Shown: positions 4,901 to 30,166, counted from the first letter of the stretch. The stretch is 64,000 nt of DNA from Acetobacteraceae bacterium (GCA_030041375.1 JASHOA010000033.1:1-64000), one strand, 5' to 3'. The notes: a model not told the origin generated them from the sequence alone. Program-made: numbers and translations.

Positions 4901-5259
4901 ATGAGCCGGCCCATATCCTCGGGATCGAGGTCGTGGGTGAGCGCGGTTGAGCCGACGATGTCGCAGAACAGCACGGTGAGCGGCCGGCGTTCCGCCTCCG
5001 TTTCAGAGGGAGGCTCGGCCGGCACAGCGGCGGGCGGGGCGGACGGGTCCGGCAGGCCGGCGGCGATCGCCGCCATCAACCGCCGCCGCGCCCCGAGCGA
5101 GAGCCCGAGGTCCCTGAGGTCGTTCTCGGAAAGCAGGCTCATCGTTGCGAGATCGATCTCCGCCTCGATGAAGGCCGCCAGATGCCGCTCCAGGCCGAGG
5201 CGGGAAAGCAACGCCGCAAGCTCGTCCATCGCAACCCGTCCCTCCCTCGGCGCTATCAT
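1915..5259 (-). CDS. SAM-domain/class III nucleotide cyclase/AAA ATPase/TPR regulator
   Basis: 1114 residues. A SAM-like helical domain (about 11-68) is followed by a class III cyclase homology domain (about 92-270) with both metal aspartates (D100 in VLFCDIVGST, D144 in FMGDGMLVFFG). A signalling ATPase comes next (Walker A AEAGLGKS at 318-325, Walker-B-like MILVEDAHWMD near 440), then a long alpha-helical TPR-like region. This architecture is common in alphaproteobacteria and actinobacteria; few members have a known signal or proven cyclase activity. Start is either ATG 5259 or the internal Met11, which begins the SAM domain. The C-terminal tail (residues after about 1090) is low-complexity and overlaps the DUF3429 gene, so the stop may be displaced relative to homologues. 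Confidence 0.88.
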   Translation of the reverse strand: MIAPREGRVAMDELAALLSRLGLERHLAAFIEAEIDLATMSLLSENDLRDLGLSLGARRRLMAAIAAGLPDPSAPPAAVPAEPPSETEAERRPLTVLFCDIVGSTALTHDLDPEDMGRLIHRFQDAAAGAVARFEGFVDRFMGDGMLVFFGYPRAQENAAERAVRAGFAIIEATGAITTPAGTPLSVRVAIASGDAFVGKTLVHGAAREPLAAGEVLNLAARLQEVAPPNGIAISQETRALLRGLFELENLGQHFLKGIGAAVPAWRVLRERVLATRFEAAEARTLSPLVGREAEGALLAGRWTAAGQGEGQVVLLSAEAGLGKSRLIRELRERAASEPHVVVRYQCSPMHTNSALHPVIGQLRFASGINPDDPPACQLERLALLLRQASGDIETALSLIATLLAIPGPHSSSLAGLSAEQVKHRTLEVLIAQMLGLARNRPLMILVEDAHWMDPTTQELISLAIAAIQNEPVLIVITYRPTFQHHWGGLPHATTLRLGRLTRAETRTLISHVAGGKQLPDEVTDQIIARTDGVPLFVEELTKAVLALGSLVEQDDRYVLKGSLDALAVPATLRDSLLARVEGLAAAKEVAQLGAVLGREFRRAHVAAMAAIGEATLDEGVARLLQEELIHQHGSRAVVSYVFKHALVQEAAYSTLVQARRRQLHARCAEILQDLSPEIAEQQPEVLAQHYQAAGQSLAAAEHWLAAGRQAARQSAHQEAIGHLRAGLAALGEAEQTERREELELLLELELGVPLIATRGYAAAETETAWDRARALAERRQDGARLAQALYGLWAAQISLGRVRRALDTAGQVIDIAGRIGEVGIGLVGGRIRGLTHFMLGDLDAARADLERTIAGFHPDRDGGLAFHFGQNPRVSARAILATVLALQGESEAAREAGRLAVEEAAQIRHTNSEAYALAYGACMAAWMLGEVEETAALADRLVLLAGENNMGLWGAYAASFKGWALAESDRPAEALALFEVAISGFQKAQSGIYEPAHRGLHALALARAGRQAEGLAGLEAALAEARRREENWCIPELLRLRAGVLPAADSAASLGEAVEAAQVSRLPLWERKARADLGRLPRGAGAWAERSEQKPCADQAKHQHGDQDRNHHD

Positions 5260-5315
5260 GGCACGACCCGGCAGCCGAGAAAATATGATGACGGAATCAC
5301 CCCCTTTCGCTGGCC

Positions 5316-6788
5316 TTGTCGACGGCGCATGATGCGACCCTGCGTACCGTGGGGTGGGTTCTGGAAAGCGGGGGGCCGATGCTGCGTTCGCTTCTGGAAA
5401 TGGTCGGGGCCGATCCGGAACTGGCCGGAAACGTTACGATCACCGGCGCCGATCCGGTCATCGACACGCCCTTCCGGCTGGGCGAGACGGCGGCCGCGGT
5501 GTTGGGCGCGCTCGGTGCGCTGATCGCCGAGACCTGGCGGCTTCGGAGCGGAGAAAGCCAGCAGGTCGGAATCGAGGTGCCGGCCGCGGTGCTGGCGCTG
5601 CAGAGCGTGATGCTGCAGAGGCAATGGGGCTATCCGATCGCGCTGACGGAGCCTCTCTACCCCACCGTTGCGATCTATCCGACGCGGGACGGCCGCTTCA
5701 TCATGCTCAATGGCGGCTATCCGCTGCTGCGCGACGGGTTGCTGGAATTGCTGCGCTCGGCGGACAGCGCGAGCGCGGTGGCGCGCGCCGTCGCGGAGTG
5801 GGATGCCGAGGAGCTGGAGAAGGCGATTGCCGATCGCGGCCTGTGCGGCGTCGTGGTGAGGAGCGCGGCGGAATGGCGCGCGCATCCGCAAGGTGCAGCC
5901 ATCGCCAGGCTGCCCGCGGTCGAGATCACGCGCATCGGCGATGCCCCGAAAGTTCCGTTTCCAGCCATTCAGTCCGCGCCGGATGCACGCCCGCTTTCCG
6001 GCATCCGGGTGCTCGATCTTACGCATGTCATTGCCGGGCCGACCTGCGCGAAAAGTCTGGCCGAGCAGGGAGCGACGGTGCTGCACATCTACTGTCCGTC
6101 GCGGCCGCAACTGCCGCCCTTCGACATGGATACCGGGCACGGCAAGCGCACGGCCTTTCTCGATCTGGCGGGCCCGACGGCGACACGCGATCGGGCCACT
6201 CTCTCGGGCCTGGTGCGGCAGGCCGATGTGTTCTCCCAGAGCTACCGGCCGCAGTCACTGGCGCGGCTTGGCTTTTCGCCGGAGGGGCTGGCCAGGCTCA
6301 GGCCAGGCATCGTCGTCGTTTCGACCGACTGCTACGGCTGGGCCGGGCCGTGGCGGTATCGACCCGGCTTCGAGCAGCTTGCGCAGTGCGCGAGCGGGAT
6401 GGCGGTGGGCCAGGGCAGTCCGGACAATCCTGTTCTGGTGCCGATGGTTTATCCGAACGACTACATCAGCGGGTTTCTCGCCGCGCTGGGAACCGTTGCG
6501 GCGCTGATGCGGCGTGCCCGGGAGGGAGGAAGCTGGCAGGTGCGGGTCTCGCTTTGCCGCACGGCGATGCTGATCCAGGATGAGGGCGAGGTCGATCCGA
6601 AACGACGGCCGCCGCCGCCGATCGCGGATGACGACCGCGCGCGATACATGGCGGAATGCGACAGCGCGATCGGGCGGCTCAGCTATCTCGGGCCGGTCGT
6701 CAGGATGTCCGCAACGCCGGGGCGGTGGGACCTGCCGCCGGCACCTCTCGGCGCGCACCCGCCGCGCTGGCCGGAGGCGGCGCCATGA
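5316..6788 (+). CDS. CaiB/BaiF family III CoA-transferase with unusual domain order
   Basis: 490 residues if TTG 5316 is the start; Met22 (ATG 5379) is an alternative. The canonical CaiB N-terminal motif (IRVLDLTHVIAGPTCAKSL) does not appear until about residue 230. It is followed by GHGKRTAFLDL and by NDYISGF, whose Asp aligns with the catalytic aspartate region. Residues about 40-215 resemble the middle/C-terminal part of a CaiB chain. The protein therefore looks permuted, or a fusion of a partial and a fuller copy. Family III enzymes move CoA between carboxylic acids through an enzyme aspartyl-CoA anhydride; the substrate here is unknown. It overlaps the patatin gene start by ATGA, so the two are translationally coupled. 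Confidence 0.85.
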   Translation: MSTAHDATLRTVGWVLESGGPMLRSLLEMVGADPELAGNVTITGADPVIDTPFRLGETAAAVLGALGALIAETWRLRSGESQQVGIEVPAAVLALQSVMLQRQWGYPIALTEPLYPTVAIYPTRDGRFIMLNGGYPLLRDGLLELLRSADSASAVARAVAEWDAEELEKAIADRGLCGVVVRSAAEWRAHPQGAAIARLPAVEITRIGDAPKVPFPAIQSAPDARPLSGIRVLDLTHVIAGPTCAKSLAEQGATVLHIYCPSRPQLPPFDMDTGHGKRTAFLDLAGPTATRDRATLSGLVRQADVFSQSYRPQSLARLGFSPEGLARLRPGIVVVSTDCYGWAGPWRYRPGFEQLAQCASGMAVGQGSPDNPVLVPMVYPNDYISGFLAALGTVAALMRRAREGGSWQVRVSLCRTAMLIQDEGEVDPKRRPPPPIADDDRARYMAECDSAIGRLSYLGPVVRMSATPGRWDLPPAPLGAHPPRWPEAAP

Positions 6789-7834
6789 ACGACCGCCCGA
6801 CGGTCGCGCCGGCGAAGCCGGTTGCACTCGTGCTGCAAGGCGGCGGGGCGCTCGGCGCCTATGAGTGGGGCGCCGTGAGCCGGCTCGTCGAAGCGGGCTA
6901 CCAGCCGGTCGCTGTCAGCGGCGTGTCGATCGGGGCGATCAACGCGGCTGCCATTGCCGGGGCGCGCGGCGGCGACATCAGGGAAAGCCTGAGCAAAATC
7001 TGGCAGGCGATCACGCTGCCGACGCTTCCGTTCGTTCCGGAGATCTTCCAGGAAACCCTCTCCGCCTTCGGCAACCGCAACTTCTATACGTTGCGCACCG
7101 ATTATCTCACGCTGGCGAGCTGGACCGCGTATTGCGATGTCAGCCCGATGCAGCGGACGCTCGCCGAAATCTGCGATTTCGCGCAGATCAGCGACCCCCG
7201 CCATATGCGTTTTGCCGTCACCGCGACCGATGTCGGCACCGGCTCATCCGTGCGCTTCCTCAACACCGAAGGGCCGATCCGCCCCGAACACGTGCTGGCG
7301 AGCGGGGCGCTGCCGCCCGGCTTCCCGATGGTCGAGATCGACGGGCCGTTCTACTGGGACGGCGGCCTGTTCGACAATACGCCCCTCAAGCCGATGATCG
7401 CGCTGCTCACCGAGGAGGAGATCGAGACGCTGCCGATCGTCGTGATCGACCTCTTTCCCGGATCGGGCGAGCACCAGCCGATCCCGACCAACCTGGTCGA
7501 GGTGAAGAACCGGATGATGGAGCTTTCTTTCGAGAATCGGTTCTGGGAGAGTTATGGCGTGAGCGGAAGCTATCCCGACTATGCGGCGATGCTGAAGGCG
7601 CTGGATGAAGCCGTTCCTGCCGATAGTCCGCTGCGCGCCAACCCCGAGTTCGCGGGCTTGCTGCGCCGGCGGTGCTTGAAGAATCTCCATGTCATCCCGA
7701 GCGAACACGTGGCGATGACGGGTGGGCTGGATTTTTCCGCCGCCGGTGTTGCGCGCCGGCAGCGGATGGGGTGGGAAGCGATGGACCGTCATCTCGCCGA
7801 GGACGGGTTTGCGCGCCGGGAGCGTGCCCAGTGA
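6785..7834 (+). CDS. Patatin-like phospholipase (DUF3734 type)
   Basis: 349 residues. It shows the oxyanion-hole glycine stretch QGGGALGAYEWGA (18-30), the nucleophile elbow GVSIG with Ser48, and the catalytic Asp in WDGGLFDNTP (about 191), i.e. a complete Ser-Asp dyad. The C-terminal part, rich in aromatic and acidic residues, matches the DUF3734 tail of bacterial patatins. Patatins hydrolyse acyl esters of phospholipids or other lipids. An upstream in-frame extension is open but non-conserved; ATG 6785 overlaps the preceding stop. Its stop overlaps the GTG of the next gene (GTGA), so caiB-patatin-M20 form one coupled transcription unit. Confidence 0.92.
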   Translation: MNDRPTVAPAKPVALVLQGGGALGAYEWGAVSRLVEAGYQPVAVSGVSIGAINAAAIAGARGGDIRESLSKIWQAITLPTLPFVPEIFQETLSAFGNRNFYTLRTDYLTLASWTAYCDVSPMQRTLAEICDFAQISDPRHMRFAVTATDVGTGSSVRFLNTEGPIRPEHVLASGALPPGFPMVEIDGPFYWDGGLFDNTPLKPMIALLTEEEIETLPIVVIDLFPGSGEHQPIPTNLVEVKNRMMELSFENRFWESYGVSGSYPDYAAMLKALDEAVPADSPLRANPEFAGLLRRRCLKNLHVIPSEHVAMTGGLDFSAAGVARRQRMGWEAMDRHLAEDGFARRERAQ

Positions 7835-9093
7835 ATGCCCGGGTGAGTGCCGCTTCGTCCGAGCCGACCGAGATCGATCGCGAACGGCTGCTGGCGGACC
7901 TTGCCGCGCTGTCGGCGATCGGCGCTTACAAGAGCGGGGTGCATCGGCCGACTTTCTCTGCCGAAGATATCAAGGCGCGCGCCTGGTTCGCGGAACGGCT
8001 GAGGGAAGCGGGTCTTGCGGTCGAGATCGACGGCATCGGCAATACCATCGGCCGCTGTTCTTCAGGGCGCGCGCTGCTGGCCGGCTCGCATCTCGAATCG
8101 CAACCTCATGCCGGCCGCCTCGACGGGCCGCTCGGCCTCCTCTACGGGCTGGCCGCGGTGCGCGCCTTGCGCGCGGCCGATCTCGAGCCCGCGCTCGATG
8201 TTGCGGCCTGGGCCGACGAGGAGGGCTGGTTCGGCCAATTTCTCGGCAGCCGCTCGTTTTGCGGCGAAGTGACGGAAGCGGAAATGGACGCGGCGCGGCA
8301 GCGCACCGATGGGACGCCACTGCGCGCCGCGCTGGCGGCGGCCGGGGTTGCCGGAAGACCGCGCGCGATCCTGCCGCCGGCGCGCTATCTCGGCTACGCC
8401 GAGGCGCATATCGAGCAGGGAGACCGGCTCGAATCGGAGGGCCTTCGGATTGGCATCGTCAGCGCGATCGTCGGGATGCGCAATGTCATCATCGCGGCCG
8501 AGGGCGTGCAGAATCATGCCGGCACGACGCGGATGGCGATCCGCAAGGATGCCGGGCTCGCGCTTTGCAAACTGTGCATTGCCATCGATCAGGCTTTTCC
8601 GGCGGTCGCCGGATCGCGGAGCGTCTGGACCACGGGGCGGATGCGTTTCGAGCCCGGCGAACCGAGTGTCATTCCGGGCCGCGCCGAGATGCACTTCCAG
8701 TTCCGCGATACCGATCCGGCCGTGCTCGAGCGGCTCTCAGGGCGGCTTCACGCGCTGATCGAAGAGACGAATCGGACGGGGCCGTGCCGGATCACCGCGC
8801 GGCTCCGGTCGGCGACCGAGCCTGCGGTCATGGATGCGGGGATGCAGGATGCCTTTGCCGCTGCAGCCGAAGCGCTCGCACCCGGCGGATGGACGCGGAT
8901 GCCGAGCGGCGCCGGGCACGATGCGCAGAATTTCGCGCGCCATATCCCGGCCGTGATGCTGTTCGTGCCGAGCATCGGCGGCATCAGCCATCACTGGGCG
9001 GAAGACACGAGCGAGGCCGATATCGTGCTCGGCGCGCAGGTTTTTGCCGAGGGCATCCGTCGCCTTCTCGTCGCGGCGGATCGCTCACGCTGA
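7831..9093 (+). CDS. M20 Zn-dependent amidohydrolase (allantoate/N-carbamoyl-amino-acid type)
   Basis: 420 residues from GTG 7831, which overlaps the patatin stop. Metal-binding M20 motifs are present: SHLESQPHAGRLDGPLG, DEEGWFGQFLGSRSF and EAHIEQGDRLE. The C-terminal SGAGHDAQNFA and the motif LFVPSIGGISH are typical of the hydantoinase/carbamoylase (Hyu/AllC) branch, which hydrolyses carbamoyl or ureido amides using two metals. The exact substrate (allantoate, N-carbamoyl amino acid, ureidoglycolate) cannot be told from sequence alone. No allantoin genes flank it. Confidence 0.88.
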   Translation: MNARVSAASSEPTEIDRERLLADLAALSAIGAYKSGVHRPTFSAEDIKARAWFAERLREAGLAVEIDGIGNTIGRCSSGRALLAGSHLESQPHAGRLDGPLGLLYGLAAVRALRAADLEPALDVAAWADEEGWFGQFLGSRSFCGEVTEAEMDAARQRTDGTPLRAALAAAGVAGRPRAILPPARYLGYAEAHIEQGDRLESEGLRIGIVSAIVGMRNVIIAAEGVQNHAGTTRMAIRKDAGLALCKLCIAIDQAFPAVAGSRSVWTTGRMRFEPGEPSVIPGRAEMHFQFRDTDPAVLERLSGRLHALIEETNRTGPCRITARLRSATEPAVMDAGMQDAFAAAAEALAPGGWTRMPSGAGHDAQNFARHIPAVMLFVPSIGGISHHWAEDTSEADIVLGAQVFAEGIRRLLVAADRSR

Positions 9094-9171
9094 AAAGCCG
9101 GAGGCGGGGCGAAGCCGGGCGCCGGCAGCGTCCTCGCTCCGGCTTGTCCTCCGCCACTCCTCCCGGCACCT

Positions 9172-10428
9172 ATGCCGCCGATGCCAGCCTGCTCCCCCTC
9201 CCCGCTCCCGCTGCCGCACCGGCTCTGGCGCCTGCTGCCGGCGGGACCCAGGCGCCGCGCGTTCGCCGGGCTGACCGCAGCCCTGGCGCCACGGCCGGAT
9301 TCCAGGCCGCCGCGTGCCGAGGGCGGGGTGATCGTGGCGGGCGCGTTTTCCCGTGCGACCGGCCTCGGCGAAGGGGCACGGCTGATGAGCGAGGCGCTCG
9401 GTGCACTCGGCGTCGGCTGCTGGCGGCTCGACGTATCCGGCGACATGTGGCCGGGAGCGGCGGCTGATTTCGCGGGGCCGGGGACCTTTTCGCTGGAGAC
9501 GGTGCCGGCAGGGGCGGCGCTGGTGCTGCACGTCAACCCGCCGATGCTGCCCTGGGTTCTGTTCCGCCAAGGTCGGCACTTGGTGCGCGGCCGGCGCGTG
9601 ATCGGCTACTGGGCGTGGGAGCTGGAGACTGTATCGCCGCCCTGGCATCGCGGCGGCGCGCTCGTGCACGAGGCGTGGGTGCCTTCGCGGTTCACGGCGA
9701 GCGCGGTGGAGAAATTCATGCCCGGCCGCGTCAGGGTGGTGCCGCACCCGCTCGCCATCGCCGAGCCGCGTCCATCGGCGCGCGATCGGCGCTCCTTCGG
9801 GCTGCCGGCTGATGCGGTGATCGTGCTCGTCTCGTTCAACCTGGCTTCGAGTTTCGTGCGCAAGAATCCGCTGGCGGCGATCGAAGCGTTCCGCATGGCC
9901 TTCGGCACGCGGAGCGACCGGCTCTTGGTGGTCAAGGTCGGAAATCCCGAGCTGGAGGCTTCGGATTTCGCCATTCTCGAAAGGGCTGTTGCGGGATCGC
10001 CCAATATCCGCCTGTTGACGGAAGTGCTTTCCGGCCCCGACAATCACGCGCTGACGAGAGAAGCGGATATCATCCTCAGCCTGCATCGGAGCGAAGGCTT
10101 CGGACTGGTGCCGGCCGAGGCGATGCTGCTCGGCAAACCGGTGGTCGCGACCGGCTGGTCGGGCAATCTCGAATTCATGGACGAAACGAATGCGGCCCTG
10201 GTCGGCTACCGGCTGGTGCCGGCACGCGATCCGCGCGGCGTGTTCGAGGCGCCTGGCGCAGTGTGGGCCGAGCCGGATATTCCCGCGGCGGCTTCTCTGC
10301 TGGCACGTCTTGCGGAGGATGCCGCCTATCGCGCCGAGCTCGGCGTCAGGGCGGAAAAGGCGGCGCGCGAGGCGCTCGGCACGGGGCCGCTCGAGGCAGC
10401 GCTGGCGGCGATCAGGCACGCCCCATGA
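9172..10428 (+). CDS. Glycosyltransferase family 4-like protein (first of two)
   Basis: 418 residues. A Rossmann-like donor domain in the C-terminal half carries SLHRSEGFGLVPAEAMLLGKPVV (about residues 302-324), the EGFGL...E signature of GT4 enzymes that bind a nucleotide sugar. The N-terminal half contains GAFSRATGLGEGAR, an acceptor-side glycine loop. There is no signal peptide or membrane segment, so it is probably cytoplasmic. It starts 78 bases after the M20 gene and its stop overlaps the start of the next glycosyltransferase. Sugar and acceptor unknown. Confidence 0.85.
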   Translation: MPPMPACSPSPLPLPHRLWRLLPAGPRRRAFAGLTAALAPRPDSRPPRAEGGVIVAGAFSRATGLGEGARLMSEALGALGVGCWRLDVSGDMWPGAAADFAGPGTFSLETVPAGAALVLHVNPPMLPWVLFRQGRHLVRGRRVIGYWAWELETVSPPWHRGGALVHEAWVPSRFTASAVEKFMPGRVRVVPHPLAIAEPRPSARDRRSFGLPADAVIVLVSFNLASSFVRKNPLAAIEAFRMAFGTRSDRLLVVKVGNPELEASDFAILERAVAGSPNIRLLTEVLSGPDNHALTREADIILSLHRSEGFGLVPAEAMLLGKPVVATGWSGNLEFMDETNAALVGYRLVPARDPRGVFEAPGAVWAEPDIPAAASLLARLAEDAAYRAELGVRAEKAAREALGTGPLEAALAAIRHAP

Positions 10429-11498
10429 GGGTGCTGGTCTGGCACTGGGGGCGGTTCGGCGCGGGGCCGAGATTTGCCTGCGAGCTGGCGGCAGGCTTCG
10501 CGCGGCTGCCGGGAACGACGGCCTCTCTCTCGCTTTCGGCGCAGGCCGAGCTTCTGCAAGGGGCGGCACTGCCGGTTCCGGTGATCCCGTTTTCCACATA
10601 TACGGGATGGCCGGGCCTGCTCGGCCGGCTCGCCGCCGCGCCGTGGCTGGTCCGCGGCCTGGCCCGGCGCCTCAGGGAACGGGAGCCCGGGCTTGCGGTC
10701 TCGGCGATGCCGGCGCTGCTCGATCCGCTGATGATCGGCGCGCTGGCCCGCCTCGGCGTGCCCTATGCGACGGTGATCCATGACGCGGAGAGTCATCCCG
10801 GCGACGAGCTGTTCCTGCAGATGCTGCTGCAGCGACGGCTGGTGCGCGGCGCCGCCCTGGTGGTGGCGCTTTCCCAGCATGTCGCGGCGAAGCTCATCGA
10901 GCAGGGGGTCGTTCGCGAAGAGCGGCTGCTGGTGGCCTCCCATCCCCCCTTTACGTTCGGCGCGGTGCCGGCGCGCGGGCCGCACGGCGGGCCATTCCGC
11001 CTGCTCTTTTTCGGGCGGCTCAGGCGCTACAAGGGGCTTGGCCTGTTGGCCGCGGCACTGCGGAAGCTGCCGGCGGGGCGGTTCGCGGTCAGGGTCGTCG
11101 GCAGTGGCCCGGCGAGCGCGGAACTGGCGGAGCTTGCTGCCCTCGGCGGGGTGAGCGTGGAAAATCGCTGGGTGCCGGAGGCGGAGGTGGCAGGGCTGTT
11201 CGCCTGGGCGGATGCGGTGGTGCTGCCGTACCGGGAGGCGAGCCAGAGCGGCGTGGCGGCGGCGGCGCTGGCGGCCGGGCGGCCGGTGGTGGCGACCAGC
11301 GTCGGGGGGCTGGCGGAGCAGCTTGCCGGCGAAAGCCTGGCCAGGCTCTCCGCCCCGGAAGCGGCGGCGCTCGCCGACTGCCTGGCGAGGCTCGCCGACG
11401 AACCGCTGCCACAGGCCGCGCTGGTCAGCGCCGCGGAAGCCTGGAGCGGGTTCGCCGCCGAAATCCTCGCCGCCTGGGACAAGGCGCGGCCGGCGTGA
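10425..11498 (+). CDS. Glycosyltransferase family 4 (second of two)
   Basis: 357 residues from ATG 10425, overlapping the previous stop as ATGA; the longer in-frame opening upstream is the shadow of that gene. MRVLVWHWGRFGAGPRFA at the N-terminus and LLFFGRLRRYKGLGLLAAAL mid-chain are typical GT4 features. ADAVVLPYREASQSGVAAAAL corresponds to the GT4 donor-site E...E region. It is probably a cytoplasmic retaining glycosyltransferase, working with its neighbours on a common glycan. Confidence 0.87.
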   Translation: MRVLVWHWGRFGAGPRFACELAAGFARLPGTTASLSLSAQAELLQGAALPVPVIPFSTYTGWPGLLGRLAAAPWLVRGLARRLREREPGLAVSAMPALLDPLMIGALARLGVPYATVIHDAESHPGDELFLQMLLQRRLVRGAALVVALSQHVAAKLIEQGVVREERLLVASHPPFTFGAVPARGPHGGPFRLLFFGRLRRYKGLGLLAAALRKLPAGRFAVRVVGSGPASAELAELAALGGVSVENRWVPEAEVAGLFAWADAVVLPYREASQSGVAAAALAAGRPVVATSVGGLAEQLAGESLARLSAPEAAALADCLARLADEPLPQAALVSAAEAWSGFAAEILAAWDKARPA

Positions 11499-12427
11499 CG
11501 GCGCCCCGGACCAATGTCCTTTGTGAAGGCTATGCCGGCCTCGTCTCGCAGGGCCTGGGGCTCGCCGAGGCCGCTTGCCTCGCCGCCGAGACCCACCTTC
11601 TCGCCCCCCGCGCGCCGTGGCGATGGATGGCGGCGCGGCTGTGGCCGGAGCCGCTTTCGGCGGTCGGTCTGGCGCCGCCGTTTCCGGAACTCGCGATCGG
11701 GGTGGGCGGGGTCGGGGCGGCGGTCGGGGCGGCGTTGCGGCAGCGCGGCGCCACGGTCGTGCAGGTCCAGCACCCACGCATGCCGGTCGGACGATTCGAC
11801 CTCGTTGTCGCCGGCATGCATGACGAGATTTCCGGCCCGAACGTGGTGGTGACACGCACGGCCCTGCACCGGGCGACGCCGGCGCGGATAGCGGACGCCG
11901 CCGCCGCCTGGGCGCCACGGTTTGCCCACTTGGCGCGGCCGCTGGTTGTCGTGCTGGTGGGCGGGACGAACGGGCGCTTCCGGCTCGACCGCCGGGTGGG
12001 GGCGCGGCTGGGCGCGATGCTGGCCGGGATGATGCGGGCGGATCGTGTCGGCATCGCGCTCACCCCATCGCGGCGAACGGGGGCCGCGGCAGTCGAGGCG
12101 CTGCGCGCGGCGCTGGAGCCGGCCGGCGGTTTTGTCTGGGACGGAAACGGGGAGAATCCCTATTTCGGGCTGCTCGGCCTTGCCGATGCCATCATCGTCA
12201 CGATCGATTCCGTCTCCATGATCTCGGAGGCGGTGGCCACGACGCGACCGGTCATGCTAGCCCCTCTGCCCGGCCGCTCGCGGCGCAACAGCCTGTTCGT
12301 TTCCGCGCTCGCGGCGGCGGGGCGGGTGAGGCCGTTTGCCGGGAGGATGGAAAGCTGGCCGGTGGCGCCGATCGACGACACCGCCGAGGCGGCAGCGGAA
12401 ATGTGCCGGAGGCTCGGCATTCGGTGA
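11495..12427 (+). CDS. ELM1 / DUF1022 family protein
   Basis: 310 residues from GTG 11495, overlapping the preceding TGA. The sequence matches the bacterial family related to mitochondrial fission protein ELM1: VQVQHPR (about residue 90), DLVVAGMHDE, VVVTRTALHR, VVLVGGTNGRFRLD and a late TIDSVSMISEA. The family has a GT-B-like fold, and in bacteria its genes often sit among glycan or lipid A genes; the biochemical activity is unproven. Its position behind two GT4 genes supports a role as a glycosyltransferase-like enzyme. Confidence 0.8.
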   Translation: MTAPRTNVLCEGYAGLVSQGLGLAEAACLAAETHLLAPRAPWRWMAARLWPEPLSAVGLAPPFPELAIGVGGVGAAVGAALRQRGATVVQVQHPRMPVGRFDLVVAGMHDEISGPNVVVTRTALHRATPARIADAAAAWAPRFAHLARPLVVVLVGGTNGRFRLDRRVGARLGAMLAGMMRADRVGIALTPSRRTGAAAVEALRAALEPAGGFVWDGNGENPYFGLLGLADAIIVTIDSVSMISEAVATTRPVMLAPLPGRSRRNSLFVSALAAAGRVRPFAGRMESWPVAPIDDTAEAAAEMCRRLGIR

Positions 12428-25695: not shown

Positions 25696-26742
25696 ATGAA
25701 GGATCTGCCGCCCGCCTATTTCGCGCTCGTCATGGCGACCGGGATCATTTCGATCGCGGCCCAGGACTTCGGTCTTCCGGCGCTGGCGCTTGCCCTCTTC
25801 GCCTTCAACATTCTCGCCTTTGTCGTGCTCGTGGTGCTGACCGCAGGCCGGATGCTCCGCTATCCGCGGCTCTTCTTCACCGACCTGACAGACCATCGCC
25901 TCGGACCCGGATTTTTCACCACTGTCGCTGCCTGCTCGATTCTCGGCACCCAGGTCCTGCTGATGGCGCACAGCCTCGCCGGCGCGATCGCGCTGCTCAC
26001 GCTCGGCATCCTGCTCTGGATCGGTCTCACCTACACGATCTTCACCGCCTTCACGGTCAAGCGCCACAAGCCACATCTCGAGGAAGGGCTCACCGGGGCC
26101 TGGCTGATCGCCGTCGTCGCCACACAATCGATCGCGGTGCTGAGCGCGCTCATCGCGCGGGACTGGCCGCAACCCTATCGGCTCGAGCTGAACTTCTTTG
26201 CCCTCTCGATGTGGCTATGGGGCGGCATGTTCTATATCTGGATCATCTCCCTGATCTTCTACCGCTACAATTTCTTCGCCTTCTCGCCAGACGATCTGAC
26301 GCCGCCCTACTGGATCAACATGGGCGCAATGGCGATCTCCACGCTGGCCGGAGCGCGCCTGATCGAAAACGTGTCGGACGCGCCTTTCCTTGCCTCTCTG
26401 CTGCCGTTCCTCAAAGGATTCACCGTGTTCTACTGGGCCACCGGGACCTGGTGGATCCCGATGCTGCTGGTACTCGGCGTCTGGCGGCACATCATCGAAC
26501 GGTTTCCGCTGCGCTACGACCCGCTCTATTGGGGAGGGGTGTTCCCGCTCGGCATGTACACCGTGGCGACCCGGGAGATGGCCGGGGCGCTCGCGCTCTC
26601 CTTCCTCGCACCGCTGCTGGTGGCGGCGTTCGCGGCAGCACTGGCGGCCTGGAGCCTGACCTTCCTCGGGCTCGTCCTGGAGCTGTGGCAGCGGGCGAGG
26701 CGGGCCTGCCCCGGGACCCGGAACCAGGGTATTAAAGATTGA
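25696..26742 (+). CDS. TDT-family (TehA/SLAC1-like) membrane transporter
   Basis: 348 residues with about ten hydrophobic spans covering almost the whole chain. It has the family start LPPAYFALVMATGIISIAA and internal GPGFFTTVAACSILGTQ, FFALSMWLWGGMFY and YWATGTWWIPMLLVLGVWRH. The tellurite-resistance/dicarboxylate transporter family comprises anion channels and carriers for dicarboxylates, sulfite or chloride. The substrate is not readable from sequence. It begins 45 bases after the CMD gene and ends 114 bases before the heme-copper operon. Confidence 0.88.
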   Translation: MKDLPPAYFALVMATGIISIAAQDFGLPALALALFAFNILAFVVLVVLTAGRMLRYPRLFFTDLTDHRLGPGFFTTVAACSILGTQVLLMAHSLAGAIALLTLGILLWIGLTYTIFTAFTVKRHKPHLEEGLTGAWLIAVVATQSIAVLSALIARDWPQPYRLELNFFALSMWLWGGMFYIWIISLIFYRYNFFAFSPDDLTPPYWINMGAMAISTLAGARLIENVSDAPFLASLLPFLKGFTVFYWATGTWWIPMLLVLGVWRHIIERFPLRYDPLYWGGVFPLGMYTVATREMAGALALSFLAPLLVAAFAAALAAWSLTFLGLVLELWQRARRACPGTRNQGIKD

Positions 26743-26856
26743 TCGATGATGCCTCTTTTTTCGCTTGATTCGCGAAGCGCCCCGTTGGTAGCGTTTCAAG
26801 AACAACTCTTCGTTGCTCGTATGTAATCGGCTGCGGGAGCGCCGCTCGGGGGGCGC

Positions 26857-27396
26857 ATGGTCGTCCAGAACGTCGTTTGGGCGGTCTCCATCATACTGAT
26901 GGCGGCCGTGGTGGGGGTCTTCGTCTGGGTTGCTGACGGCGCTTCCAGGCATGTCGTGGATCACGCGCCGCTGACGGCTGCGGCGTACCGCCTCAGGCCA
27001 TGGCTGTTCCTGATTCTCGCCCTGGCCATGGTTGGCGCCAACTGGCGAACCCTGATCGAACTGCCCTATCGGGCTGTCGCCAGCGCCAGGGTGCTCGCTG
27101 CTCCGGTGCAGCGCGTCCAGGTAGTCGGCGAGCAGTGGGACTGGCGGATCACCCCGAACCAAGTGAAGGCGGGCACTCCCGTCGCCTTCCATGTCACGAG
27201 CAGAGACGTCAACCACGGCTTCGCGATCTATGATCCGTCGCTCAGGATCGTGGCCGAGACCCAGGCGATGCCCGGGTTCGACAACGTGCTGCGCTACACC
27301 TTCGAACAACCCGGCATCTACCAGGTGATGTGTCTCGAGTATTGCGGGCTGCTGCACCACGTGATGCGAGCAACGATCACCGTCGTCCCGCGCTGA
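26857..27396 (+). CDS. CuA subunit II of a heme-copper reductase (sNOR/ba3-like)
   Basis: 179 residues: two membrane spans (about 5-27 and 47-65), then a periplasmic cupredoxin domain. All CuA ligands are present: His120, Cys159, Glu161 (backbone), Cys163, His167 and Met170. Length and compactness match the subunit II of B-family heme-copper enzymes rather than aa3 oxidase. By position (II, I, SenC, membrane protein) it corresponds to NorS of the norSY-senC-orf1 cluster known from ammonia oxidisers. It accepts electrons from a c-type cytochrome or cupredoxin and passes them to subunit I. The intergenic leader has no FNR-type box. Confidence 0.85.
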   Translation: MVVQNVVWAVSIILMAAVVGVFVWVADGASRHVVDHAPLTAAAYRLRPWLFLILALAMVGANWRTLIELPYRAVASARVLAAPVQRVQVVGEQWDWRITPNQVKAGTPVAFHVTSRDVNHGFAIYDPSLRIVAETQAMPGFDNVLRYTFEQPGIYQVMCLEYCGLLHHVMRATITVVPR

Positions 27397-27414
27397 ACCC
27401 ATGGAGGAGCGGAG

Positions 27415-28929
27415 ATGAGCGCCAACGCCGGCCGCGCCGATAGAGCAGGAGTCCGGGATGGCGAGACGGCAGCCCGTGCCGTCGAACTCGCCTACATCGC
27501 CGTGGTCGCGATCGTGCTCTTGCTGATGATGCTGTTCGGCCTGACGATGCGCGCCGCCCAGGCGCAATATCTCGATGTCCAGCCGCGGCTCTTTTATGTA
27601 CTGCTGACCATGCACGGCGCCGGCATGGTGGGCATCGCCGGAGTCGCGGGCGCGGTCGTGATGTGGCATTTCGTCCGCCGCCACGTGCCGGTCAACACCA
27701 CGGTATTCCTGGCCAACCTCGTGCTGTTCCTGATCGGGGCAGTGCTGATCCTGGGCTCCGGCTTCATTGGCGGCTTCGCCGGGGCGTGGACGTTTCTCTA
27801 TCCGCTGCCGGCGCATTCGAATGGCATCTGGTCGGCGAATGCGGCGGCGGCGTACATGCTCGGCCTCCTGGTGATCGGGGTCGGATTCCTGTTGCTGCAT
27901 CTCGATGTGCTGCACGGCATCTGGCGCACCTACGGCAGCCTCGCGAACGGGCTCGGCCTGAAGCAGGCGATCGGCCTCAAGCCGGAAAAGACGGGGCCGC
28001 CGCCCGCCGTCCCGGCCGCGACCATGGCCTCGATCGTCAACGTCCTCGGCATCGTCATCGGCGCCGTGGTGCTGATCCTGTCATTGGTCAATCTTTACGT
28101 GCCGTCCTTTACGATGAGCGCACTGGTGGCAAAGAATCTCATCTATTTCTTCGGGCACGTGTTCATCAACGCCACCATCTACATGGCAGTGATCGCCGTT
28201 TACGAGATCCTGCCGCTCTATGCGCATCACCCCTGGAAAACGAACCGGATCTTCTATCTTGCCTGGGTGGCATCGACGGTGATGGTGCTGATCGTCTATC
28301 CGCATCACCTCCTGATGGATTTCGCCATGCCACCGTGGGCGCTCGTGGTCGGCCAGATCATCTCCTATCTGAGCGGCCTGCCGGTGCTGCTGGTGACCGC
28401 CTTCGGCGCCCTCACGGTGGTGCACCGCTCCGGACTCCGATGGGACACGCCATCCGGCCTCTGTTTCCTCGGCGTGCTCGGCTGGGCGGCGGGAGTGATC
28501 CCGGCCATTGCCGACGGCACGATTGTCGTCAACAGCGTCATGCACAACACGCAATGGGTGCCGGGGCATTTTCATACCTACCTGTTGCTCGGCACGGTTG
28601 CGATGTTTCTCGGCTACATGACCTGGACCGCCAAGGAGGTGCCGCACGAGACGATCGGCACGGAACCGGCCGCCTTCTGGCTCTACGTAGGCGGCGGCAT
28701 CATCTTCGTGGTTGCCTTCCTGGCAGCCGGCAGCGCCAGCGTGCCGCGCCGCTATGCCGTGCACCTGGCGCCGTGGCTCACCTATGATCGGATCGGTTCG
28801 CTCGGTGCATTGCTGGTGGTGCTGGGGGTCGGCATCATGGTCGTGCAGTTCCTGGTGCGCGTGCCGGCGCTGGCTCGTCTCCCGATGACGGCGGTGGCGC
28901 AACCTCTGCCGGAGGCCGCCGCGGAATGA
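27415..28929 (+). CDS. Heme-copper reductase subunit I lacking the active-site Tyr (sNOR-like)
   Basis: 504 residues with about 12-13 spans. Metal ligands are in place: His67 (low-spin heme), His248 and His297/His298 (CuB), His385 (high-spin heme) and His387 (low-spin heme) in HNTQWVPGHFH. In ba3 and aa3 oxidases the CuB His is followed at +4 by the Tyr cross-linked to it; here position 252 is Asn (FGHVFIN). Loss of that Tyr is a known feature of heme-copper NO reductases and argues against O2 reduction, though a Tyr from another helix (e.g. Tyr295) cannot be excluded. Coupled to the SenC gene by ATGA. Predicted product N2O from NO (inferred). Confidence 0.85.
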   Translation: MSANAGRADRAGVRDGETAARAVELAYIAVVAIVLLLMMLFGLTMRAAQAQYLDVQPRLFYVLLTMHGAGMVGIAGVAGAVVMWHFVRRHVPVNTTVFLANLVLFLIGAVLILGSGFIGGFAGAWTFLYPLPAHSNGIWSANAAAAYMLGLLVIGVGFLLLHLDVLHGIWRTYGSLANGLGLKQAIGLKPEKTGPPPAVPAATMASIVNVLGIVIGAVVLILSLVNLYVPSFTMSALVAKNLIYFFGHVFINATIYMAVIAVYEILPLYAHHPWKTNRIFYLAWVASTVMVLIVYPHHLLMDFAMPPWALVVGQIISYLSGLPVLLVTAFGALTVVHRSGLRWDTPSGLCFLGVLGWAAGVIPAIADGTIVVNSVMHNTQWVPGHFHTYLLLGTVAMFLGYMTWTAKEVPHETIGTEPAAFWLYVGGGIIFVVAFLAAGSASVPRRYAVHLAPWLTYDRIGSLGALLVVLGVGIMVVQFLVRVPALARLPMTAVAQPLPEAAAE

Positions 28930-29537
28930 CGCGCGGCTTTCTGCCGTTGCTCGGCTTTGTTATTGCGACCGGGCTTGCAACCCTCGGCTTTGCGACCTCG
29001 GGCTTCCGGGTTGTCACCACCGAGGGTGCACGGCGACTCGCGGTCGAGCATCACCCGCGGGCGGTTCCCGACGCCGTTCTCGTCGATCAGGACGGCAGGC
29101 GATTCACATTCGCCGCCTATCGCGGCAAGGCGCTGCTGGTCGAGTTCATCTATACCAACTGCCCGACGATCTGCGGCATCCTGGGTGACGATTTCGGCCG
29201 TGTCCTCGCCACTCTGAGGCAGGACCGAGGCACCTCGGGAGTGGATCTGCTGAGCATCAGCTTCGATCCTGCGCGTGACGGGCCGCGCGCGCTACGATCC
29301 TACGCCGCGCGGTTTGGAGCCAACGCGCCAGGCTGGCGGGTCGCGGTGCCGGCCACCCGGGAGGGTCTCAGGGCGCTGTTGAAGAGCTTCGGTGTGGTCG
29401 TCATACCTGACCGGTTCGGAGGATTCACCCACAATGCCGCCATCTACCTGCTGGATGGGCAGGGGCGTCTGGTGCGGATTCTCGATGCCGGCCCGCCGGC
29501 AACTCTGCTGGCAGAGGCGGCTCACGCGGTGTCCTGA
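28926..29537 (+). CDS. SCO1/SenC copper chaperone
   Basis: 203 residues with one N-terminal span (about 5-25) anchoring a thioredoxin-like periplasmic domain. The copper-binding set is complete: Cys79 and Cys83 (CPTIC) and His169 (FTHNAAIY). SCO/SenC proteins insert copper into the CuA site or reduce its cysteines. Overlaps the subunit I stop, so is produced together with it; this fits the intact CuA site of the subunit II. Confidence 0.94.
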   Translation: MTRGFLPLLGFVIATGLATLGFATSGFRVVTTEGARRLAVEHHPRAVPDAVLVDQDGRRFTFAAYRGKALLVEFIYTNCPTICGILGDDFGRVLATLRQDRGTSGVDLLSISFDPARDGPRALRSYAARFGANAPGWRVAVPATREGLRALLKSFGVVVIPDRFGGFTHNAAIYLLDGQGRLVRILDAGPPATLLAEAAHAVS

Positions 29538-30166
29538 TGCTGCGCCTCGCCGCCGCAGCGATCCTCTGGTTCGGGCTTTGGCTCCCGCCGTTGAGAAGCG
29601 GGCTCGAATCGGACATGGCGCTGCACATGACGGTGCAGATCCCGCTGCTCGCCGTGGTCGGCATCCTGATCGCTCCGGAAGTGCGCCGGTTCGAGCCGCG
29701 ATGGCTTGCAGAAGCCGATTGGCTCGGGATTCCCGGCATCGTGCTGGTACTGTTCTCGACCTCCTGTTGGATGCTGCCAGTGGCGCTCGATTCGGCGCTC
29801 GGTGACTGGCGCATGGAAGTTGCCAAGTTCGTAAGCCTGCCGCTTTTGGTCGGGATGCCGCTGGGATTGAGCTGGCAGCGGATGCCGCCGCTCGGCCGCC
29901 TGTTCGTGATCGCGAACATCATTTCCAAGGTAGGGGCGCTCGGTGGCCTCTACCTCGCCGCGCCGATCCGGCTCTGCGCCTATTATCGGCTGGACCAGCA
30001 GGCCGAGGCGGGCTCAGCACTGCTCGCCGTTGCCACCGCCGCCATCGTCGGAGCATTCCTCGCCAGCTTTTTCGGCTGGTCCTGGCGGCGACCATTCCGG
30101 GACGCCTGGAAGGGGCATCGGGCGGTCGCGACAGCAACGGATGCCAGCCCGTCCTTGCCGACCTGA
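29537..30166 (+). CDS. Membrane protein of the heme-copper operon (orf1/CtaG-like)
   Basis: 209 residues with about five spans. The segment ESDMALHMTVQIPLLAVVG recalls the histidine-bearing helix of CtaG-type cytochrome oxidase assembly factors. It starts at the base where the SenC stop ends (TGATG overlap). In Nitrosomonas-type norSY-senC-orf1 clusters the fourth gene is likewise a membrane protein, so it is probably an assembly factor for the reductase. Not strongly enough related to any named family for me to assign a symbol. Confidence 0.75.
   Translation: MLRLAAAAILWFGLWLPPLRSGLESDMALHMTVQIPLLAVVGILIAPEVRRFEPRWLAEADWLGIPGIVLVLFSTSCWMLPVALDSALGDWRMEVAKFVSLPLLVGMPLGLSWQRMPPLGRLFVIANIISKVGALGGLYLAAPIRLCAYYRLDQQAEAGSALLAVATAAIVGAFLASFFGWSWRRPFRDAWKGHRAVATATDASPSLPT

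Follow-up and report, generated by a model that had tools for sequence, protein, structure and literature searches.

NO is toxic and N2O is a greenhouse gas. Among the heme-copper NO reductases, the sNOR type has already been named and is little studied. Its gene order, norSY-senC-orf1, was described in Nitrosomonas (PMC4940428), and Silicibacter has been listed among its carriers (PMC8756737). According to Table A4 of the latter paper the active-site residue is Asn in sNOR and CuANOR, Gln in eNOR, and Glu in cNOR and qNOR. Cytochrome c oxidases of all types conserve a Tyr that is described as essential (PMC8079940), and the NO reductase purified from Bacillus azotoformans has Asn (PMC3475470). 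The same source assigns 12 helices in subunit I (SI) and two N-terminal helices in subunit II (SII) to qCuANOR type II, and 13 helices in SI and one transmembrane (TM) helix in SII to type I. For the 12-helix proteobacterial sNOR, the literature surveyed contains no biochemical demonstration of NO reduction.

The DNA analysed here, referred to as the window, is a stretch of 64,000 nucleotides from an Acetobacteraceae bacterium (GCA_030041375.1, JASHOA010000033.1:1-64000). All four genes that the initial annotation had described as coupled at 26857-30166 on the plus strand are present as open reading frames, and an additional candidate site was located upstream:

26733..26755, strand not assigned: candidate NsrR-type operator, weak, AAGATTGATCGATGATGCCTCTT; it lies upstream of norS and shares bases with the end of the transporter gene before it
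26857-27396, plus strand: norS, 179 aa, CuA-containing subunit II (Pfam COX2)
27415-28929, plus strand: norY, 504 aa, heme-copper subunit I (Pfam COX1)
28926-29537, plus strand: senC, 203 aa, SCO-type copper chaperone (Pfam SCO1-SenC)
29537-30166, plus strand: orf1, 209 aa, integral membrane protein with no Pfam match

The gap between norS and norY is 18 bp, norY and senC overlap by 4 bp, and senC and orf1 by 1 bp, an arrangement indicating translational coupling. Scanning 84,980 species genomes yielded 469 relatives; the best 80 were kept and, together with others, gave 91 loci for comparison. The reading of gene 1 as a CuA subunit II and of gene 3 as SenC is borne out by the Pfam matches and by the metal ligands. 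NorS, which has two N-terminal TM helices by hydropathy, carries the CuA ligands H120, C159, E161, C163, H167, and M170, and SenC carries a CxxxC copper site (C79, C83) with H169; both sets are 99-100% conserved in the 91 rows (best 80 of 469 plus others). Compared with a near relative, an Acetobacteraceae MAG (L062) whose NorY is 96% identical to that of the window, all four genes differ mostly at third codon positions and contain zero stops. This bias, together with the conservation of all four genes in about 90 loci, indicates that the four reading frames are real genes. In NCBIfam the matches of norS and norY are all far under the cut-off and senC and orf1 have no match, so that the enzyme is named by no curated model there.

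NorY keeps the six canonical heme and CuB histidines (His67, His248, His297, His298, His385, and His387) in the alignment. Four residues after the first CuB histidine, at the position of the cross-linked Tyr of O2 reductases, it has Asn252. In the alignment, all examined rows of A- and B-type oxidases have Tyr at this position and every readable clade member has Asn, the relatives having been retrieved with patterns that left the Asn residue out. The initial annotation had pointed to the complete CuA ligand set and the SenC chaperone as the features that set the operon apart from cNOR; they do so, and fail to separate it from O2 oxidases. Judged from the sequences, the deciding feature for sNOR is instead the Asn at the Tyr position. 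Candidate classes rejected on this basis were eNOR, for which Gln would be expected at the Tyr position and whose Gln-type rows group apart; cNOR and qNOR, for which an active-site Glu and entry through heme c or quinol would be expected in place of Asn252 and a CuA subunit; and the ba3 or B-family O2 reductases, for which a His-cross-linked Tyr would be expected.

The best sequence relatives of NorY in the PDB are Thermus ba3 oxidases, in keeping with its earlier description as B-family-like. Its AF2 model (pLDDT 85.3, pTM 0.89) has 12 long helices and the heme-copper fold, with a TM-score of 0.76 to ba3 (1ehk). For sNOR, the absence of a proton channel is predicted. Of the ba3 residues that we take to line the proton channel, Tyr237, Tyr244, and Ser309 are N, V, and V in NorY, and Tyr248 is kept (alignment). 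Clade members all have K240 and nearly all have E264, and these two residues could provide an alternative proton path.

A maximum-likelihood tree of subunit I with 66 rows, a check that the initial annotation had proposed, placed NorY outside the ba3, aa3, and cbb3 oxidases and inside a single Asn clade with Nitrosomonas, Nitrosospira, Nitrosovibrio, and Ruegeria (support 100/100), the deeper joins being unsure because of long branches. Nitrosomonas was represented by N. halophila and Nitrosomonas sp. Nm33, alongside Nitrosospira, and N. europaea was left out. The rows outside the clade were Tyr A-type, Tyr B-type, Gln-type, and cbb3, with the Gln-type (eNOR-like) rows forming a separate group, also at 100/100. 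The branch nearest to the NorY of the window consists of Xanthobacteraceae and Beijerinckiaceae MAGs at about 70% identity. Of the 91 loci (best 80 of 469 plus others), 85/87/88 retain the order norS-norY-senC-orf1, Nitrosomonas among them, in agreement with PMC4940428 and with the initial annotation; the loci without the full order reflect, at least partly, contig ends or limits of stop-to-stop reading frames. Beyond the four genes, the search for conserved neighbors found flanks common essentially only to the window and L062, and isolated matches in single other loci. Strong matches occur in 2 of the 150 genomes of an order sample, namely the window genome and another family member (G126). 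Their proteins fall on different sNOR branches, which suggests that the two genomes acquired sNOR separately.

The fourth gene had been called CtaG-like, and this identity finds no backing. CtaG (PF09678) was rejected as the window protein has no Pfam match at E<=5, and an hhalign comparison with the true CtaG of Thermomicrobium gave a probability of 0.2%. A search of the PDB for folds similar to the AF2 model of orf1 (pLDDT 89) returned no match. Weak DUF1404 matches (Pfam, E<=5) were seen in three relatives only. The gene is present in 88 of the 91 loci (best 80 of 469 plus others) as a conserved multi-helix membrane protein, and it may encode an assembly factor or an accessory subunit.

On these grounds (Asn252 and the six histidines, the clade, the CuA ligands, and the operon order) we consider it very probable that the operon encodes sNOR, a CuA-type heme-copper NO reductase, as had been proposed, and we infer that NO reduction is the reaction catalysed by NorSY. 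It is not the first alphaproteobacterial case, since Silicibacter is already listed (PMC8756737) and Ruegeria (Silicibacter) pomeroyi DSS-3 has the same operon on its megaplasmid (SPO_RS20760-20745). The two share gene order and residues. The R. pomeroyi operon is 52-53% identical to that of the window, falls on a different sNOR branch, and has as neighbors a cbb3 operon and, in divergent orientation, an Rrf2/NsrR-like regulator, neither of which lies alongside the window operon. It is annotated as cytochrome oxidase, the label that the initial annotation had expected from pipelines; the NO-to-N2O capacity of genomes counted as non-denitrifiers may be overlooked as a result. The surrounding megaplasmid region (L060:1-11766) combines sNOR with the cbb3 oxidase, ccmE, hemA, a truncated hemoglobin, the NsrR-like gene, and a formate/nitrite transporter, and looks suited to conditions of low O2 and NO.

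The sNOR of Nitrosomonas and Nitrosospira has its four genes in the order seen in the window, Asn in the active site, and all CuA ligands, and it belongs to the same clade (100/100). Its NorY is about 52-55% identical, the Nitrosomonadaceae loci examined lack both the NsrR-like neighbor and the box, and the window host, unlike Nitrosomonas and Nitrosospira, is not a known ammonia oxidiser and is a putative nitrate reducer without nirK. The qCuANOR type II of B. azotoformans and Geobacillus (PMC3475470), likened to the window operon by description only, has a 12-helix SI with Asn, a two-helix CuA SII, and linked genes for SenC and a 4-5 helix protein, and its hosts are Bacillota; the window proteins agree with it in both helix counts (12 in SI from the AF2 model, two in SII by hydropathy). 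Thermus ba3 oxidase shares the fold (TM 0.76), the six His ligands, and a CuA subunit, and differs from the window enzyme in having Tyr for Asn, about 20% identity, and one helix more by the description in PMC3475470. The cNOR (NorBC) and qNOR enzymes belong to the same superfamily and carry out the reaction proposed here, with a Glu/FeB site and heme c or quinol entry as opposed to the Asn/CuB-type site and CuA of the window.

In the assembly of the host, which is 4.5 Mb long and 99.99% complete, the COX1 family has two members, the norY of the window and a true aa3 subunit I; a bd oxidase is present as well. The statement that no denitrification genes are nearby stands for the locus, and a genome-wide search found neither nirK, nirS, nor another heme-copper NO reductase (cNOR, qNOR). 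It is true only locally, as narG is present elsewhere: a respiratory nitrate reductase operon (MFS transporter, narG, narH, narJ) lies on another contig (L152, G000:C28:84000-103000, at 5104-12339), and its NarG scores 2122 bits against a cut-off of 1084. The search for Hmp in the host genome gave only a sub-cut-off reductase-domain match, a ferredoxin-type oxidoreductase without a globin. The search for NnrS gave no match, but its control was silent too. Genome G126 likewise contains narG, and a true nirK was not found in it. Of ten sNOR genomes tested, only about half contain narG, so the link to nitrate is not general. The role of the operon in the host genome is most likely the removal of NO.

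An NsrR-like Rrf2 gene, encoding a protein with three invariant Cys, adjoins the operon in 38 of the 91 loci (best 80 of 469 plus others), mostly in divergent orientation immediately upstream or else immediately after orf1. In HMM searches these regulators score near both NsrR and RirA, with no clear separation and with the tabulated members under both cut-offs. Upstream regions were scored against an extended form (22 positions, threshold >=16) of the published NsrR consensus gATGyAT-N5-ATrCATc (PMC1274295). Operators of this type were present in 34 of 85 upstream regions; dinucleotide shuffling predicts 0.5, and a control region inside norY gave 0. They occurred in 28 of 35 loci with an NsrR-like neighbor and in 6 of 50 without, a contrast that is overstated because the loci are related sequences; when only the published core was scored and each 70%-identity group was represented by a single locus, the figures were 11/16 vs. 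3/15 (p = 0.011). This association of gene and operator is new here, and it supports NO as the putative signal, against the published idea of a high-affinity oxidase. In Nitrosococcus oceani NsrR (Noc2967) lies beside senC (Noc2969), and the accessible part of the source discusses no link between the two.

The candidate operator of the window (26733-26755) matches 15 of the 22 extended positions, a score reached by 0.2% of dinucleotide shuffles, and 11 of the 14 positions of the published core; the equivalent site in L062 scores 16/22. No NsrR or Rrf2 gene was found within the window. With a weak site and no such gene, NO control of the operon in this genome would be a guess. FNR/NnrR boxes (TTG-N8-CAA) were absent upstream of the window operon and only scattered in other loci. 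About 20 mostly betaproteobacterial loci (e.g. L124:5566-6978) carry a conserved PAS/sigma-54 activator divergently upstream of the sNOR operon. Its best models are NifA and NorR, under cut-off, and these loci are mostly without an NsrR box. The gene preceding norS in the window (25696-26742, same strand) encodes a TDT/SLAC1-type anion transporter and stops about 115 bp short of norS; this neighborhood is common only to the window and L062.

In the mechanism we propose, NO would arise from nitrite produced by the nitrate reductase, or from acid chemistry, and would switch the operon on, a step that is presumptive for the window genome. A periplasmic one-electron donor, possibly cytochrome c or a cupredoxin, would reduce CuA of NorS; the electrons would then reach the low-spin heme of NorY, whose axial ligands are H67 and H387, and finally the high-spin heme/CuB site (H385; H248, H297, H298). 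There 2 NO + 2 e- + 2 H+ would yield N2O + H2O. With the cross-linked Tyr replaced by Asn252, the site would be without the redox-active residue used by O2 reductases, and SenC would supply copper to CuA, CuB, or both.

The published alternative is a high-affinity B-type terminal oxidase, for which O2 would be the physiological substrate and NO reduction a side reaction. Its authors argued that the heme-copper site implies O2 reduction and proposed such an oxidase for N. europaea, where limiting O2 raises transcripts of the sNOR genes 2.7- to 10.8-fold (PMC6967387), and the sequence and fold of NorY are indeed nearest to ba3-type and other oxidases. The Tyr conserved in all cytochrome c oxidase types (PMC8079940) is nevertheless Asn throughout the clade, and a purified enzyme with Asn at this position acts as an NO reductase (PMC3475470). 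In many lineages the operon is found together with NO-sensor-like genes and operators, and aa3 and bd oxidases are already encoded in the host genome. We regard the oxidase as unlikely; the invariance of Asn and the NsrR association point to NO over O2 as the probable substrate.

Assignment to bNOR (qCuANOR type I, B. azotoformans type) instead of sNOR would account for the Asn and for the like neighbors (SenC and a multi-helix protein), and the two names are used together in PMC3475470. Type I, compared by description only, differs from the window proteins in SI (13 helices against 12) and in SII (one TM helix against two), which makes this assignment highly improbable. We also give very little credence to a relict that binds NO without real turnover, or to a reductase of another small oxidant. 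The proteobacterial clade does lack biochemical support for its function in the literature surveyed, and its occurrence is patchy (2 strong matches in 150 genomes of the order sample). Against this, all redox centers and the copper chaperone are intact, and the third-position-biased change indicates selection on all four genes.

What is added here to the sNOR assignment is the residue test, the breadth of operon and tree comparisons, the NsrR association, and a host whose only heme-copper NO reductase found is sNOR. A broader reading, which may prove right or wrong with about equal chance, is that sNOR widely serves in detoxification as a reductase induced by NO under the control of NsrR, and that it is the sole NO reductase of some alphaproteobacterial nitrate reducers without NirK or NirS. 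If so, such alphaproteobacteria would be unrecognised sources of N2O, missed by nirK, nirS, and norB surveys, and the argument over oxidase or reductase would be settled for NO. In carriers with no other NO reductase, such as the window genome, the question of NO versus O2 would be directly testable by a single deletion.

Other combinations of heme-copper genes were seen among the compared loci. On a plasmid of Thermomicrobium roseum (L061:4336-8130), an Asn-type SI/SII pair at about 36% identity is accompanied by a formate/nitrite transporter and a true Caa3_CtaG in place of SenC and orf1, and its SI is without the otherwise near-invariant Glu264. A Ramlibacter MAG (L091:2014-3750) and a Burkholderiaceae MAG (L119:1611-3350) each carry a Gln-type (eNOR-like) SI within about 5 kb of the sNOR operon on the opposite strand, placing two different putative NO reductases next to each other. 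Finally, CcoN-like subunits lie beside sNOR operons at L110:5469-7106 and L134:3054-4715; they score well under the ccoN cut-off and share an unusual HNxLGLxxTP motif in helix VI.
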